A stretch of 64,000 nt of DNA from positions 11,885,501 through 11,949,500 of the forward strand of contig NC_058496.1 in assembly GCF_020382885.2 (NCBI RefSeq). Direction: 5' to 3'. The first letter of the stretch is position 1; every line of letters starts with the position of its first letter. Made by a program: the position numbers and the translations under genes. Below the pieces are notes generated by a model. The model made no database searches and was not told where the DNA came from. It was given only the letters and a program-made list of their open reading frames with translations. Positions 4,920 to 46,904 of this stretch are shown here, piece after piece. Origin of the DNA: Scatophagus argus (taxonomy: Eukaryota; Chordata; Actinopteri; Scatophagidae).

Positions 4920-7900
4920 AATGACAGTGCCATTAGGCCTTTAGGTGTAGAGATGATTGACAAGGAAGTCACCTGCATTCGCAGAAGCTTCTTTCTACCT
5001 GATTCCTGCTGGAAACCATATAATTTTCAGCACACAGTGTAGGTGAGCACATACAGGTGTTTGTTTTGAAAGGATGCTAAAAGGGAGACATGAGAAGCTA
5101 CAAGCTGTATTCTTGACTCTTTTACATCTGCTCCATCTATTGATTTGATGCAGCGGCAGCCAAATGTAAACAAACCAAATGCACAGTTTCCTCTATTTGC
5201 TCACATCCATGCACAACACACACACACACAGTTAACAGGCTGAGACTGTGATTGTAATGAGTGCAAAAGCATTAGCTCACTTCTTAACTGCCTCGGGTCG
5301 CATTACACCAGTCGCTAGCTGTGTTTGCGAGCAATGACAATGTTGTCTTAATCTTACAGAGAGATGTCAGCGTGTGATAGATTGGGAGAAGACAAGCACA
5401 TTCTAGTCATGTATTTCACGCCACATGGAGAAGAAGTGATTGCTGTTGTTGGTACCTCTTGCTGGCAGAGGTGTTTTGCCGCCCAATTGTGGCTTATTTT
5501 ATATTCTAAAATTTCTTATGTCATCATGTCATCTTCTTAGTACTTCAATAGAAATATATTTTTTTATACAAAAAGGCATTAGCTTAAAGAAAAACCCACC
5601 ATGAGATACAGTTGAAAACACAACTATGCAGTTTTACCTCACATTCCTGGCTTCATTTTGTTTAATGGTACGCTGTTCATATTTTCATGAATAAGTGGCC
5701 AAATGTAGATGATATGATGTCACACTAGAGTTTAATAGAAGAAATACTTTCAGCAAATGTTAAAAACATCCAGCAGGCTATGAATGTACACACAGAGACA
5801 TGAGTATTCGGGACAAAATGTCACCATCCTCTCATTGAATAATAGTACCATTTTATCTCTTTCCTTCTGTGGGGGATACTGAATGGCATTCTTGGAAATG
5901 AAGGAAATCACAAACTGAAGGAGAAGTAGAGGTGACAAATTCAATATTTGTTTCAATTTCAATATTTCTTCCTAAACTAATTCCCAGAATGCAGTGCAGA
6001 TTGCCGGCTGATTCTACGTGTCCCAGCAGCATGAACTGAGTTGATTTATTGTCATTTTATTCTGACATGCGTACTGAACATGTCAGTTCTTGTAGCAAGA
6101 GGAAGGACGTATTCAGATTCATTTATTCATTGCTCAGTAACAACAGTGTAGTGTAGTACACTGAGCACCCCCAAGTGCCTTGCTCATGGGCATGATGATA
6201 AAGTCGTTTAGCAGAGGGGAAGGGACATGGACACACACACACGCACACACACCCAGCACACATCCAGCATTTCATCCTGCAGCCAAGTCGCAGCCAGCGC
6301 TCACTCATAACCTGTCACTTTAATGGAAACCTCTTAGGAGTCATCTTTCAAATCTGGAGTTGTATTCTTCTCATGTTGCGTTGTTATTGCAGGGACAGCA
6401 ACTGGAATAAGTTGAAAGACTGTGAAAGTGTGTAATAGCTGTAATTAGCTAACATTTTATACTTATTATCTGCCAAGTATACCATGTTAACAAGCTGTGC
6501 CTATGATAGTGTTATTGGCTTGCCATTTCTGTGCTAAAATATAATTATGATTTTTGCATTGCTATGTACAGCTAAGTACAGCTATGTATTGGCGAATTGG
6601 TGTAAAGCCTTTGTGCGTAGATTCACTACTAAAAACATTAACCTGCATGCACATGAACACACACACACACACATTTCTGAGGCCACTAAACCCAAATTTG
6701 TTCATTTCAGATAATGCTTGTAAAGCTTATCACAATTTCCAGGTCAAATGTTTTGATTATGATTAGGTGCTGAAAGACTTTACATGACTTCCAAGTTCTA
6801 GTTTGATAGAGCAGTAAATTCATAGCTAGAAATTAGTATTTTTCAGAAAATCTGAATCCGATAAGACATGGACTCCTAGTTACTTTGCTTTTAATAACCA
6901 AATTCAAGTTGTTATGTAGGCAGAATCTGTTGCTCACTCACATTACAGTGGAAAATTACCCTCGGTTATTTGACAGTCTAATCAGTAATCCATGTAATAA
7001 TGGTCTTTGTGGGTGAGAGGATAGCAGAGTTTTCATCCCATTAATTCTACAACCACAAAAGCTTTGACAATGTGTCTGTGACACTCACAGCAGCATAGCA
7101 TACTGCATTAAAGAAGCAAACTAAGCTTAGTTCAATATAGAGCATGCAATGAGTGTGGATTTGTTATACAACATAATGAATTTCATTTCAACAAGCCCAT
7201 GAATGAGTCAGAAGCATTGCTAGTATAAACATCAAGGCAGCCTTCAAATAGTCACACCACACCTTAAACAAAACATACACAACTTCACAGTGTTTAGGAG
7301 ATTTGGAATCATGTTGTTCAGGAATCATCCTTGAGATAAGCAGGCCAATGACACAGTAAGAATAGGTCTCTTGTATCAGACAATCTCATAATGAAGAGAA
7401 ACAAAGCAAGAGCCATGAACTGACAATTTTTTAATGTGAATATGGTAGATATGTGCCATTTATCTCTTTGTGTGTCTTTCTTTTTTTGAATAAAGCTCAG
7501 TGTTCTGTTGTTGTTGCCTAGTGCTGATGATACCAGCAAGTCAATGCTGTTGCAGAAAAGTCTTAATATATTTACTAGTGCCGTAAAATTGCGAGTATGT
7601 ATTTTTTTATTTCACTAATCACAACGTATTGCTGCTCAGTACATGTATTTTCCCTGCGTTCGGCCTTACTGTGGTGGGATGGGGTCATTCAAGCGAGTAC
7701 AAAGACCACTATTGTGTTCATGTATAAATGTTTGTGAAAACGTTCAAATTGGATGGCATTCGACAATGTTCTGCATAAGAGGGATTGGATTATTTGTCTG
7801 ATTTATCTGTACAGCCGTCTGGAACAGTAGGACTGGTTGTGCCCCAGAGTCGAGGCAGTCATCTCGTGATGCATTCACAGTGTTTACGTCCATCCAAAGA

Positions 7901-11924: not shown

Positions 11925-11930
11925 TTTATT
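11925..11930 (-). terminator. selenop: poly(A) signal of selenop
   Basis: AATAAA on the minus strand, about 1.15 kb after the selenop stop and beyond the SECIS element. It implies a 3' UTR from 13084 to about 11905. Confidence 0.7.
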
Positions 11931-12429
11931 CAACTCTCACTTTTCATGTTTGACAATCTTAATACAGTTCTCTGTGCAAGCATCGGGTTTTCAGGGTGAC
12001 TGTCATGTTTCCACAGATGCCATCATTAAGTACAGAGTGTATTCAGCAGTCATTCATTGCTTCGCTCTTCTATTCCTCCTTGACCTTTACTAAACACTAT
12101 ACCCTTTTTTGTGAGTAAGCCTTGTATAAATGTGTGCAATTTGCAATCTACATAAGAAATCCAGTGAATGCAAAGAATAGAAACCGATACTTGTAAGTCA
12201 AGTACTCAACATTCAAAAAGTGTATGTTTGTGGTAAAAGATACAACTGATCTACGTTTAAGCATGTGGAATCAACAAAACAAAAAAGAAAGTCATTCGCG
12301 GTAATAACGCTGTTATATGTGCTCAAGAATGATGATGAGTAGCACGCTCTAAAGACAAACACAGCACTGGTATAAAATTTTCTTTGCTTTTAAATGTATT
12401 TTAAAACTTATACTCCAGTGCTTTAAGGT

Positions 12430-12467: not shown

Positions 12468-12664
12468 GATTTCTGGCAGTTGCCTAATTCACAGAATCGG
12501 ATGTGCTGTAATAGTATTGTCTTTTATGCTTCCTTGGTCATTTGTTTTCTTGTGCAGTATTTGCACATTTAATGTGTTTTTTTTCTTTTCCTTCAAATAT
12601 CCTCTGATGTTGAACTTTGAAAGGTTTTAAGTGTGTATCATGTTCCTGAACTGCCCTCTCCTCT

Positions 12665-12735
12665 CTCTCCTGCCTGACTTCAAACAGACGCCACTAGGGC
12701 ATAGTTTCCGCATCTGGTTTCATTGTGGATGGAGA
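12665..12735 (-). promoter_or_regulatory. selenop: SECIS element (form 2-like) in the selenop 3' UTR
   Basis: On the mRNA strand AUGA lies at 12723-12720, followed by 12 nt, then AAA at 12707-12705, and UGA at 12682-12680. The helix AACCAGATGC / GCGTCTGTTT pairs in nine of ten positions, counting one G-U. After the AAA bulge ACTA-TGCCC-TAGT can form the mini-stem of a form 2 SECIS. It lies about 360 nt after the stop codon. It would recruit SECISBP2 and direct Sec insertion at the upstream UGA codons. Confidence 0.85.
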
Positions 12736-13084: not shown

Positions 13085-14701
13085 TTACAGCTGCTCTCAT
13101 CCTCAGCTTGCACCTTGGGGTCAGGCTCATTGGGCTGGCTGAGGCTGCTGTCAGTCAGCAGGAGGTGAGCGTCACTGTCAGGTCTCCCTAACGTTATTGG
13201 CTGCTTCACCTATCAGCCCGTGTCACTGTCAGGAGGCGGGCAGCGCCTCATCACAGTGTCAGAGACCGACTGGCTGCTCACTCCCCGCCTCACCAAACAG
13301 CCTGCGTCAGTGTCAGCATCAGCTGACTTTAGGAGAGGCCTCATTGTCAGAGCCTGCTGTCCACTGTCAGCTGTGCTTTGATTTTCACCTAGCCTTCTCT
13401 GGTGCTCAAGGCCTCACAGGGGCTCCATGGGCCACCTGTGGCATGTGGTGCATGTGTGCAGCTTGCTGCATCTGGCCTAAATCTAAATGATGTTGCCTTT
13501 GAGATACATCAACATCTTGCTCATGCCCCTGGTGTCTAACACCACCTTGATGACTTTGACTTTGTCCATGGTCACTGCCATGGCCATCGTGACTTCCGTG
13601 ATGATGACCGTGGTTGTGATCACGTCCATGGCCAAAGCCACGGGGATGGAAACCATGATTATCCTGTCTGTGGCCATGACCATGGTGATGTCCATGATGG
13701 TGTCTATGTCTGGTGTCTTCCTCTGCAGGCGGGATTCCGTCTGTGTCAGGTTGTGCATCTGCTTTATCTTTGCACTCCTCTGGGGTTTCAATGCTCTGAG
13801 GAAACATTGAGAAATGGACAAAGAGCAAGAAGAGATGAGCTTGACTTTGACATAAATATGTTACAATCATAATACTTGTTTGTTTAAAATAATGTATTTT
13901 CTTTCAGATATATGTGGTCTATACCTCATATGTGCACTCGCCACAGATGCGTCTGCAGTAGGTTTCTCTGATTGCACTCTCCACATGACCTTGTCCAATG
14001 ATGGTGTAAGGAAGTGAAATGTGGTGGGTGAGACGGCCACACCTGATTGTGAAGGGATAGAAAAACAAGGTGAGTGAAAGAAAAAGAAAAATATTTTCCC
14101 CTGAGTTTTCTTACAAAATATGAATGAACTGTCTACTACAAGTAACAAACCTGTCATAAATGAGAAAGTCATCTTTCTCCCCCCCGAGCGCCTGCCAGAC
14201 ATCAGGCTGTTGCACATCCTGTCTGTAGAGAGTGATGTTCTCTGACAGTTTCTGTGCCAGCAGGGGGTGAAGGCGCTGTGCTTGCTCCCCCCTGTGGTTA
14301 ACGACCATGTAGACCACATCCTTCAGACCCTGATTCTCAAGCTTCTGGTGCAGGCCATCCATCCTGCTCAGATGAGGGAAATCAGAGACCACAAGTTTAA
14401 AAATCAGTTGCAAAGCAACTTTTTTACTTGAATGAAAGTGGTCAGTGCACAAAAAAGAAGTCAAGGTGGATATTGCCTATCGTGTGATGACCACGTACCT
14501 GGAAGCCTGCACCAAGCAGAACAAACAGCTGGCCTGTAAAAGGGCCACCACCGTCACACGACCCATTGCGTCCCTCATCGGATCCACCTCCCCGATCTTC
14601 CAGGCTGGCGACAGCTGACAGCGAGGCCCGCCCCCGTCACTCTCTGCACCGCCCCCATGGAGCAGGCAGAGAGTGACGAGCAGACTGAGGCACGCCCACA
14701 T
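13085..14701 (-). CDS. selenop: selenoprotein P, Sec-rich form (16 in-frame TGA codons)
   Basis: Secreted hepatic selenium-transport protein. Coding exons on the minus strand: 14701-14499, 14363-14151, 14042-13925, 13795-13085, total 1245 nt, 414 residues. Residues 1-19 form a signal peptide. A thioredoxin-like domain follows, with CLFC at residues 59-62 where most relatives have UxxC, then the family motif [12 protein letters not shown]. Residues 208-302 are rich in His (many HHGH units). After that the frame passes through TGA at residues 308, 315, 321, 337, 339, 341, 357, 367, 369, 384, 386, 393, 401, 403, 409 and 411 and ends in TAA at 13087-13085. The spacing (SUCUHUR, ETUQUR, GUEQL end) matches the Sec-rich tail of fish selenoprotein P as I remember it. 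A SECIS element sits in the 3' UTR. A standard gene caller would truncate the protein at 13406. Confidence 0.95.
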
Positions 14702-32056: not shown

Positions 32057-35000
32057 ATGACTGCTGTCTGCCCCTCTGACAGCAGCCCAGAAGGGGCTGA
32101 AGCTGGGGCCGGGACAGCAGGCTGCAGGGGGTCGGGGGCAGCAGGCACTGCCAGGAACATCTCGGTTTCTGGGGCAGAGACCGGGGAGTCCAATGGAGAT
32201 TCTGTCGGGGGTTCAATTGGAGGCACATCTGTGGTCACTGCTGGTCAAAGGTACACCCGCTGGAGCCGCCAGGACAGCTCAGACATCAACACAGACGATG
32301 AGGGAGCCACCATTCGGCGCCTCACCCCGCTGGAAAGGCTGAACCTGGACATGTGTCAGGATGAAAGGTAGGAGTCAAGAGATGATGCAGGAATCTCCTT
32401 TTATTAAGATTCACTGTATTTCTGTTTGCTTTTTGACTTGACACGAGGAGAAATTTTTACTGTAGTATCTCATAAGGAATACGTTGTGTTACATCTGATG
32501 TTCTCTAATCTGGTCACAGGGTGGTCCGTGAGCTTACAGTGGGCAGAAGGATCGGCTTCTACAAAATTCGAGGAGAGATCGGCTGTGGGAATTTTTCTCA
32601 TGTCAAGCTGGGAATTCATGCCCTCACCAAAGGTAAGAAACTACAAGACATTGGTGAAATAAAGCCGTTAATTCACTGTAAAGATAAAGTGATAAATAGT
32701 TTTTACTGAACAACCAACACATTCATTTTTAAAAACAAAAATCTTAAGTAAGCTCCCATTTGCTCTCTAATCTGGAGTTTTATTAAATTTCATTGATAAC
32801 TTGGCTTATGAACTGTTTCCATCAGGGAGCTGTAACATTGACACAAGAGCGTCCTCGTGTAGCAATTCACCAACAAGGCGATGTGTGCCTGGCCATGGGG
32901 CTGATTCAGCCACAGAAAGACAGACTGTCTGCTGCCCTTGAACAGATGGATTGATTAGAGATCTCCAGTTTCCTTAGCGACGGCTGAAATTGCTGCATGC
33001 CTCATCAAAGGCTAAAGAGGAGGAGGATGAATGTGTAGCTGTGTGTGTGTGTGTGTGTGTGTGTGTGCACTCTGTGTTCTTAGGGTTTTATGTAGTTTAC
33101 TGTGTGCCTTTCTATGTCATGCTATGTGTGTGTGTGTGGGTGCATGTAAGTGGTATCATTTAGTTTTCAATAAAACAATATGAGCTGCGGTGCATTTTGT
33201 ATGCTCCTATTGAAAGCTATGTCACGGCTGAAAGGGAGCCTAAAACCGGCCTGAATAATGCATACTGACGCACAATTAGATATCTCAACACCGTTTTGCC
33301 ACTTCAGAACTTTTCTGTATTCGGTTACCTTAAGTCTATTTTACTTTGCTTTATAAATCATTTAGCTAAATTCAATAAAGATATCAGTTGTTTGAATATG
33401 ATATATGTGAAGTATTTTTATCTTTACTGTCTGTAAAATTGCGTACATTTTGAAACTTGCATTATGCTTTCCTCTCCACACATTTTCAAAGGTGCAAAGT
33501 AAAATTTGATTCCAGGGTGATGCTGCTAACTCAGTGCTCTGTTTCCCTGTTATATTTCATCTCCACCCTGACTCAACCCCTCCATATCTGCTCAGGTCTG
33601 AAGTATAATGTGACAGAGAAAAGCAATTTTTCTTCATTTACAAAAGCAAATTTCTTTCTAAGATAGGACTAAAAGTAAGAATTGACCCCCCTGAGAGAAC
33701 ATAATCAAGGAAATTGGTTTCTCAGGGCAGCTAATCCTCCATCAAATTATCTAGAGCAGAGCATCAGGCTGGTCACTTCAGGGGTAATTCTGTGTTTGCA
33801 AGGTGAAACCAGGCTTACATTTTCTAACCTCCATATAGCATTCACATAACACATCTAATATCTCACCTATCAGAAACGTGGAGTTCTGTTAATGATGAAA
33901 CGCACAATGGGAACACTCAACATCTTATTTCTTTAAACGAACAAACAAGATTTTTTTGGTTTATCTTCTCTCTGTACGACTGACTCTTCTGTAGAAATGT
34001 GTTGTCGCAGATCACTGACCTTAATCTTCTTCCTTGGCTTCACCAGACAAAGTGGCCATAAAGATCCTAGACAAAACCAAGCTGGATCAGAAGACCCAGA
34101 GGCTGCTGTCCAGAGAGATCTCCAGTATGGAGAAACTACACCATCCCAACATCATACGCCTCTATGAGGTTTGACTTACACACACACTCTCATCCTGATT
34201 CACATATGAACTTTCTCTGATACCAGTAGGTTTTCTCAGTGATCCCTACATCTGGATGACATCCGGTATATTTTCTTCTTTAGGTGGTGGAGACACTGTC
34301 ACGGTTACACCTGGTGATGGAGTACGCAGGGGGAGGGGAGCTCTACACCAAGATTACTACAGAGGGGAAACTCTCTGACACTGAAAGCAAGCTTGTCTTC
34401 GCTCAGATCCTGTCTGCTGTTAAACACATGGTCAGTACATATGAGTTTACATTGAAGTGGTATGTTAAAGAAACGTAAGAGAGAATAAAATCTCAGTCTG
34501 AATGTAACCTAAATATTAGCAATAAGCAAATACATCATCATCTGTTACCTTATCTGTATGCATATCTGTACTCAGAAGATCTAAGATGAATGCAGAGAAA
34601 CTTTCCCCCTCCTTCACGTTGTTGTGAAAACAGCCTTCAAGTGTCAAACTCTGCACTAACATTCTGCCCAGTGAAGCTCAAACATCCACATGAAGAAACA
34701 TGTTTAAGTGAAGGGGGGCAGTTTTACTGTATCCTCACTACTAGAATCAAACACTCCCACGTTAAACAAAATGAGTTTGTAAATTTTTTTGACAGAAATA
34801 ATATTGTTAATGAAAAGCTGTATTGTTGTTAAACCTTGGTGGATTATGTATTTACAGTGAACGTAGGTGACACTTCCATAATGCAATTTCTCCTTGTCAA
34901 CCACAGCATGAAAACAACATCATCCACCGCGACCTGAAGGCAGAAAATGTCTTCTACACCAGCAGCTCTTGTGTCAAGGTGGGGGACTTTGGCTTTAGCA

Positions 35001-35665
35001 CGCTGAGCCGCCGCAGTGAGACCCTGAACACTTTCTGTGGTTCTCCGCCTTATGCGGCTCCTGAGCTCTTTAGGGATGAGCATTATGTTGGCATCTTTGT
35101 TGACATCTGGGCCCTGGGGGTGATGCTGTTTTTCATGGTGACAGGCACCATGCCATTCAGGGCAGACACTGTGGCCAAACTGAAGCGATGCATCCTGGAT
35201 GGGGCCTACGTCTTGCCCTCGTGGGTGCCAGAGGCATGCCAGAGGCTGATCAGAGGAATCCTCCAACCCGTACCATCTGACCGCTGCACAGTGGAGCAGA
35301 TGATGGGCTGTGAGTGGCTGCTCCCTGTGGACTTCCCGCGTGCCATGGAGCCATTTAAACTAGACCCATCCTACCTGGCAGAGGGCGAACCATCTGAACT
35401 CATGGAGGAAGAGATGGAGGTAAAGGCAGCACTGGAGACACTAGGAATAACCTCAGAACACATCCTCAACAACCAGGGGAAAGACTGCAGGAGTTCCATA
35501 ACAGGGGTGTATAGGATCCTGCTACACCGTGCTCACAGGAGACGGGCTGTTGAGAGCATGCCTGCAGTCACAAAGGCAGTCGGACCAACTACAACGAGTA
35601 AAAAGGAGCGACTAAAAGTGTACCGCAGTTTGAGGCACACATCTAAACTCTGTGTGATTCTGTGA
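32057..35665 (+). CDS. nim1k: NIM1 serine/threonine protein kinase
   Basis: AMPK-related kinase, activated by LKB1 in the known family. Exons: 32057-32367, 32520-32632, 34047-34168, 34284-34430, 34907-35665; 1452 nt, 483 residues (human about 436). Residues 1-103 are a low-complexity Gly/Ala/Ser leader ending in [13 protein letters not shown]. The kinase domain starts near residue 118: glycine loop [15 protein letters not shown] lysine K147, HRDLKAEN at 238-245, DFG at 258-260, the T-loop Thr in NTFCGSPP at 273 (LKB1 site), and APE at 282-284. All catalytic residues are present, so an active kinase is expected. The C-terminus contains [15 protein letters not shown] and SSITGVYRI and ends HTSKLCVIL, near-identical to human NIM1K. 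The start is the ATG two bases into the exon after acceptor CTTGCAG. Confidence 0.97.
33041..33067. repeat. GT microsatellite in nim1k intron
   Basis: About 13 GT units. The intron from 32633 to 34046 holds no other coding signal. Confidence 0.9.
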
Positions 35666-46032: not shown

Positions 46033-46904
46033 ATGACTCTGGAAGAGATCCGCGGACAGGAGAACACGATGGAAAACGCAGACAGGTAAATATTCTTCAC
46101 ACTGATCCCCCACTGTTCTAGCTTCTGGGTTAATGCTTTATCTGTTTATCAAAATGCGCCCCGGTGTTCTGATGATGTGTGTTTTTCTTTGTCAAGGGTG
46201 CAAAGTGCAGGCGCAGCCCTGGAAGAGCTGCTGGTCGCTGCTAAGAAGCAGGACTACCTGACAGTTGGAGTTTATGAGTCTGCTAAAGTCATGAATGTGT
46301 AAGTATTGCAATTCGTGAAATGTTCAACTACAGTCACAATTCAAAAAGAATTGTATAAGCATAAGCATGAAAGAATATGTTCTGACCAGCTTTCTTGTCT
46401 TTTCCACAGTGACCCAGACAGCGTGGCGTTCTGCATCCTCGCCACTGATGAGGAATACAAGTGTGACATCGCTCTTCAGATCCACTTTACCCTCATCCAG
46501 GCTTTCTGCTTCGACAACGACATCAACGTGGTGCGCGTTAACGACATCGAGCGCCTGGCCGACCTCGTGGGTGCAGACGAGACCGGCGAGCCCAAGGACG
46601 CGCACTGCATACTTGTCACGGTACGTTCCCGGGAGCACCCACTCAGTCAGCCACGACAGCCAGTGAATCATGCATGCATCACCGTCTGAATTTTCTGCAC
46701 ACGTTGCCCAGGAATCCTACTGCAGTGTCTGCACATTCTGTATTTGTGGCAGGCGATCTGACTCTAAATATCTCTTTATTTTCATTGCAGAGCCCCAGTG
46801 CAAACCCATGGAAAGACCCTGCTCTGGACAAGCTGAGTCTGTTCTGCGAGGAGAGCCGCAGTGTGTACGACTGGGTGCCTACCATCACACTGCCAGAGCG
46901 CTGA
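46033..46904 (+). CDS. gadd45g: growth arrest and DNA-damage-inducible protein 45 gamma
   Basis: Small acidic stress sensor of the L7Ae/L30e fold that binds MTK1/MEKK4, PCNA, p21 and CDK1 in the known family. Exons: 46033-46085, 46197-46298, 46410-46620, 46791-46904; 480 nt, 159 residues, the same as human GADD45G. It starts [10 protein letters not shown]. Conserved blocks are [53 protein letters not shown] and [12 protein letters not shown]. The end ([20 protein letters not shown], then [11 protein letters not shown]) fits gamma better than beta (WVPYISLQER) or alpha. The four-exon layout with a 102-nt second exon is the family standard. Which teleost copy (ga or gb) is not decided. Confidence 0.93.

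Follow-up and report, generated by a model that had tools for sequence, protein, structure and literature searches.

A four-exon gene on the minus strand of the 64,000-nucleotide stretch of Scatophagus argus DNA analysed here (the window) is very probably fish SelPa, present once in the genome and encoding a secreted selenium carrier in which 16 UGA codons are decoded as selenocysteine (Sec), with the first UGA of the gene absent and a single recognised SECIS element (SECIS 1). The Sec-rich tail that was reported in the preliminary description of this DNA is, as stated there, ordinary for fish SelPa. That description overlooked a cysteine at the N-terminal Sec site and the occurrence of only one recognised SECIS. 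A gene in which the first UGA, and perhaps also SECIS 2, is gone but 16 tail UGAs remain offers a direct way to ask how ribosomes prepare for serial UGAs. It would also separate the two jobs of selenoprotein P, the selenium-carrying protein of blood, such that the selenium transport tail stays in SelPa and the Sec redox site is found only in its paralogue SelPb.

Gene identity and the Sec-rich tail

The gene runs from 14701 to 13085 and comprises four coding exons separated by three GT/AG introns. Its 1,245 coding bases form a frame unbroken by TAA or TAG and encode 414 residues, with Sec residues spanning positions 308-411. Coding exon 1 (14499..14701), which is followed by a GT donor, encodes the signal peptide and the thioredoxin-like start of the Pfam SelP_N domain. 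Coding exon 2 (14151..14363) and the Cys-rich coding exon 3 (13925..14042) both have AG/GT junctions that keep the frame, and the last exon (13085..13795) carries the His-rich region, the Sec-rich tail with its Pfam SelP_C match, and the TAA stop. When the 414-residue protein is compared with Pfam, SelP_N (PF04592, E 2.3e-87) and, with TGA read as Sec, SelP_C (PF04593, E 2.7e-12) are both present, and the His-rich middle region has 29 His within residues 200-307.

A growth hormone receptor gene (PF12772, E 1.2e-76) adjoins SelPa on the other strand, an arrangement that we take to be the vertebrate SELENOP neighbourhood. In mammals, CCDC152 is the antisense neighbour of SELENOP; a tblastn search of this genome with human CCDC152 matched nothing, the best E value being 1.0. 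Conserved synteny is reported in PMC6301783, where the term ‘GHR’ is absent from the main text. A search of the whole assembly with 14701-14151 returned one match, 100% identical, and therefore no second SelPa copy was seen. No relative was found among viral contigs, and the one match in a search of solved structures (E 0.17) was discarded as an alignment to a His tag. Taken together, the Pfam domains, exon structure, SECIS and growth hormone receptor neighbour identify the gene as fish selenoprotein P (SelPa, SELENOP), a known gene type, and support the earlier assignment of its tail. Elsewhere on the plus strand of the window, the open reading frame at 34871-35665 encodes a protein kinase domain (PF00069), and that at 46303-46689, which has no Pfam match, presumably resembles GADD45, as judged by eye.

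The tail occupies 13088..13408 on the minus strand. The preliminary description had placed 16 in-frame TGA codons from 13408 to 13099, with neither TAA nor TAG in frame ahead of the TAA at 13087-13085, and every one of these codons was confirmed. Its recoded stretch of 108 codons corresponds to 107 codons plus the stop, and the part of the protein upstream has the 307 residues claimed for it. The expected similarity of the TGA-read tail to other selenoprotein P sequences was also found, as the tail by itself gives a SelP_C match at 4e-14; the agreement in Sec spacing with fish selenoprotein P was assessed solely against the SelP_C profile and a human sequence. Nine Sec codons precede a UQU motif, two lie within it and five follow. 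By analogy with the proteins described in PMC5133445 and PMC4699779, UQU would be the binding site for ApoER2, and the layout then fits the published selenoprotein P plan of five Sec after that site (PMC4699779). From these sequence features we infer Sec recoding at the tail UGAs.

We also considered that 16 TGA codons might be an accident of low complexity. Among 20,000 first-order Markov sequences with the tail's own composition, the mean number of in-frame TGA codons was 3.7 and the maximum 15, such that none of the 20,000 reached 16. However, the antisense of the His-rich repeat (13548-13868, plus strand) reaches the same number, with 16 TGA and no TAA or TAG among 107 in-frame codons, and for this reason the number of TGA codons cannot settle the question by itself. 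The accident was rejected on the SelP_C match, which decides the matter, and the count itself was not relied on.

Cysteine at the N-terminal redox site

Where the N-terminal Sec codon is expected, SelPa carries TGT (Cys59; 14525..14527, minus strand), whereas the corresponding codon of SelPb is TGA. Residues 59-62 read CLFC, changing the UxxC motif to CxxC, and Sec is absent from this motif in SelPa. The Cys59 codon, which is in frame, lies exactly 26 nt before the end of coding exon 1 and the first intron, the same distance as for the SelPb TGA, and this spacing between the first UGA and the intron is described as highly conserved (PMC5133445). The N-terminal UxxC Sec is itself described as conserved, with one per vertebrate selenoprotein P (PMC4699779, PMC3473315, PMC2397514). 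The sequence gives good support for replacement of the redox Sec by Cys. The gene is still called SelPa, as a variant, because orthology rests on domains, tail and neighbourhood.

SelPb resides on another contig (C13). Its Sec codon (TGA at L008:2753-2755, in the motif KASUQFC) is the one Sec it keeps, its SECIS lies at L008:5188-5253 (25.6 bits with Rfam and 15.3 in the genome-tuned scan described below), and its last exon ends with TAG and has no in-frame TGA. Sec-type redox activity of the selenoprotein P family may thus survive in this genome through SelPb. A third SelP_N match, on contig C3 (E 9.9e-4; 26.4 bits, above the Pfam cut-off of 23.2), was taken as spurious because its frame enters a Thr-His microsatellite repeat.

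The SelPa genes of zebrafish and other fish share their domains, exon plan and Sec-rich tail with the gene described here, but differ from it in having the N-terminal Sec rather than Cys and two SECIS elements rather than one that is recognised. Zebrafish SelPa has 17 Sec (PMC2397514), and with one N-terminal Sec as the rule (PMC4699779) its tail would hold 16, as here. Fish SELENOP can have up to 37 Sec (PMC12822975). Substitution of Cys for Sec is known at other places in the family: in medaka, a tail Sec is replaced by Cys, and in Xenopus SelPb the redox Sec is also Cys, although SelPb lacks the Sec-rich tail (both PMC2397514). The available passages of PMC2397514, PMC3316567, PMC6301783 and PMC12822975 describe no fish SelPa with Cys at the redox site, from which we do not claim that such a gene is unreported.

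SECIS elements in the 3ʹ untranslated region

The preliminary description had noted a SECIS element downstream of the tail, and one such element is supported. SECIS 1 (12669..12731, minus strand) has an ATGA quartet starting at 12723, AAA in the apical loop and TGA starting at 12682. It matches Rfam RF00031 with 30.4 bits (E 0.0027), short of the gathering score of 35, and a default Rfam scan of the whole window gave no match. With the genome-tuned scorer it reaches 15.0 and is the sole site with a score of at least 14 from 13084 to 4920. Other measures are less distinctive. The unconstrained fold of this stretch is not that of a SECIS (z -1.39, with 21 of 200 shuffles equally stable), and in an earlier constrained-fold scan of the window SECIS 1 came third among 35 sites, after two located elsewhere. 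A candidate polyadenylation signal, AATAAA, is found at 11925..11930 on the minus strand. There is also an ATTAAA at 12573, after SECIS 1 and before this AATAAA, and thus a short mRNA ending just past SECIS 1 is possible.

The power of these searches was gauged on control selenoprotein genes of the same genome, namely seven glutathione peroxidase genes with an in-frame TGA (drawn from 17 GSHPx matches, those without TGA being left out) and four deiodinase genes (from seven matches). The Sec codon was visible in the motif scan in 10 of these 11 genes; the exception, L043, has one in-frame TGA within its deiodinase match. Rfam detected a SECIS on the coding strand in six of the 11, the weakest at 22.3 bits (E 7.4), and absence of an Rfam match is consequently weak evidence. 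One of the deiodinase genes (L046, contig C6) has two SECIS-like elements, scoring 16.4 and 14.7 and located about 280 nt apart 3ʹ of one Sec codon; possibly this gene has two SECIS elements, or one of the pair is a decoy.

The weights of the genome-tuned scorer were set by hand after inspecting 14 elements of this genome, including SECIS 1 and that of SelPb, and all 14 score from 15.0 to 19.6; six of them (L010-L012 and L016-L018) are Rfam matches with no gene assigned. A downstream site of at least 14 was found in 10 of 12 selenoprotein genes (the 11 controls and SelPb), and in seven of these 10 Rfam had detected an element beforehand, weakly in one case. A fairer test of the scorer is given by the five genes that Rfam missed, where three reach 14 (16.6 to 19.1). 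The remaining two (L042 and L045) have nothing above 12.4, and the stretch of the second, a dio2 gene, may be too short. No site of at least 14 occurred in 125.9 kb of background sequence (maximum 13.1) or in 49.7 kb of antisense sequence from the control loci (maximum 12.7). Previous filters had been less sensitive, as one set returned nothing from the untranslated region, missing SECIS 1 itself, and another found the SelPb element and missed SECIS 1. Likewise, neither SECIS 1 nor the SelPb element was listed in a genome-wide SECIS search in which 150 of 13,487 candidates were scored.

Scored in this manner, the region from 13084 to 4920 has no second site of at least 14. The next in the 3ʹ untranslated region scores 9.9, a value reached by 28 background sites, and the next-best outside it scores 11.8 at 7312, well past the likely end of the mRNA. 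The 9.9 stretch lies where a SECIS 2 might be expected, just 5ʹ of the AATAAA at 11930 (11960..12050, minus strand), and is not supported as an element. Its 5ʹ SECIS half and perfect 6-bp helix I could be read as a SECIS 2 relic, but this idea was set aside because six of the 73 ATGA/GTGA-N12-AAA sites scanned have such a helix (the 73 include the four of the untranslated region itself, one with the helix). A search with Rfam of 789 bases around the expected place yielded no SECIS at E values up to 10. When looser apical loops (CA, CC or AC) are allowed, a site at 11845-11794 scores 12.6; eight background sites are as good, two of them with at least 14, corresponding to an expectation of 0.13 per 2.1 kb. 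This site may still be an element, though it falls beyond the AATAAA at 11930. Overall, the view that SECIS 2 is missing from this SelPa is moderately supported, and we regard it as somewhat probable.

Proposed decoding with one SECIS and competing explanations

In the proposed mechanism, selenocysteine would be inserted at all 16 UGA codons that the last exon contributes to the SelPa mRNA, by use of the SECIS that lies 376 to 685 nt downstream. According to PMC5133445, the main task of SECIS 2 in mouse selenoprotein P is decoding of the first UGA, SECIS 1 acting on the later UGAs, and deletion of mouse SECIS 2 gives less protein while the long form remains. With UGA 1 gone, SECIS 2 on this mouse model would be left without its chief role and might decay, in agreement with the sequence observed here. 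Loss of UGA 1 may therefore have relaxed selection on SECIS 2, the full tail may be decoded with SECIS 1 alone, and SelPb would now carry the Sec-type redox activity. Changing the first mouse UGA to a Ser codon (U40S) raised selenoprotein P about twofold, mostly as the short form (PMC5133445). This mutant suggests that a gene without UGA 1 decodes its tail poorly, but every Sec codon of the tail is retained in the fish gene. Either this fish has another way of readying ribosomes, or SECIS 1 alone might be enough in this gene.

We tentatively propose that SelPa of this fish represents a natural double loss, in which UGA 1 and SECIS 2 have both gone while the 16-Sec tail is still decoded by SECIS 1 alone; this is plausible, if short of probable. 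Moreover, we hypothesize that the two losses are linked. A double loss of this sort would mean that vertebrates retain SECIS 2 for the sake of UGA 1, and that the first UGA is not needed to ready ribosomes for the tail. The authors of PMC5133445 encountered no species in which a long selenoprotein P occurs in the absence of SECIS 2, although one SECIS was later predicted for salmonid SelPa2 (PMC6301783).

Some explanations would do away with the variant, or with the Sec-rich protein altogether. The chance that SelPb, and not SelPa, is the gene described here is negligible: the SelP_N and His-rich parts are common to both, but SelPb is accounted for on the other contig, with its one Sec and a TAG-terminated last exon free of in-frame TGA, and it is in the window gene that a Sec tail occurs together with a neighbouring growth hormone receptor. 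It is highly unlikely, too, that translation truly ends at the first tail TGA, giving just the 307-residue His-rich protein and leaving the tail untranslated or decaying. The standard code reads TGA as a stop, and the predominance of short protein in mice with a Ser codon for the first Sec (PMC5133445) might be taken to favour such an outcome. Against it stand the presence of a SECIS and a tail frame that retains five Sec after UQU, a SelP_C match and freedom from TAA and TAG, features not kept by a long-dead stretch. An assembly error or rare allele at codon 59, the species truly having TGA (Sec), is improbable but less so, given that TGA and TGT differ by a single base. The contiguity of the assembly (570.7 Mb in 48 contigs, suggestive of long reads), the single, identical match of 14701-14151 and the 1,245 coding bases in frame without TAA or TAG all speak for a sound sequence, and none of them addresses that single base.

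The explanation that bears most on the double loss accepts the redox Cys and holds that SECIS 2 is present and unrecognised, making the gene a two-SECIS SelPa. We regard this as quite possible. Detection by Rfam of only six of 11 controls, the two of 12 genes that the scorer misses and the loose-loop candidate at 11845-11794 (12.6) all leave room for it, whereas the genome-tuned scorer passes SECIS 1 alone between 13084 and 4920, and Rfam finds no SECIS in the 789 bases at the expected place.

Comparable losses, natural or engineered, bear on the proposed loss of UGA 1 and SECIS 2. Salmonid SelPa2 has 16 Sec and one predicted SECIS, as here (PMC6301783). Which Sec it lacks relative to the 17 of SelPa1 is not specified in the available passages of that paper, where all Sec positions are called highly conserved, and salmonid SelPa2 would count as a second such case if its missing Sec were the N-terminal one. 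The mouse U40S and delta-SECIS 2 alleles are engineered losses of the first UGA or of SECIS 2 (PMC5133445). They differ from the fish gene in that each was made separately in the laboratory, the first UGA gave way to Ser instead of Cys, and the mouse gene has 10 UGAs, whereas 16 tail UGAs remain here.
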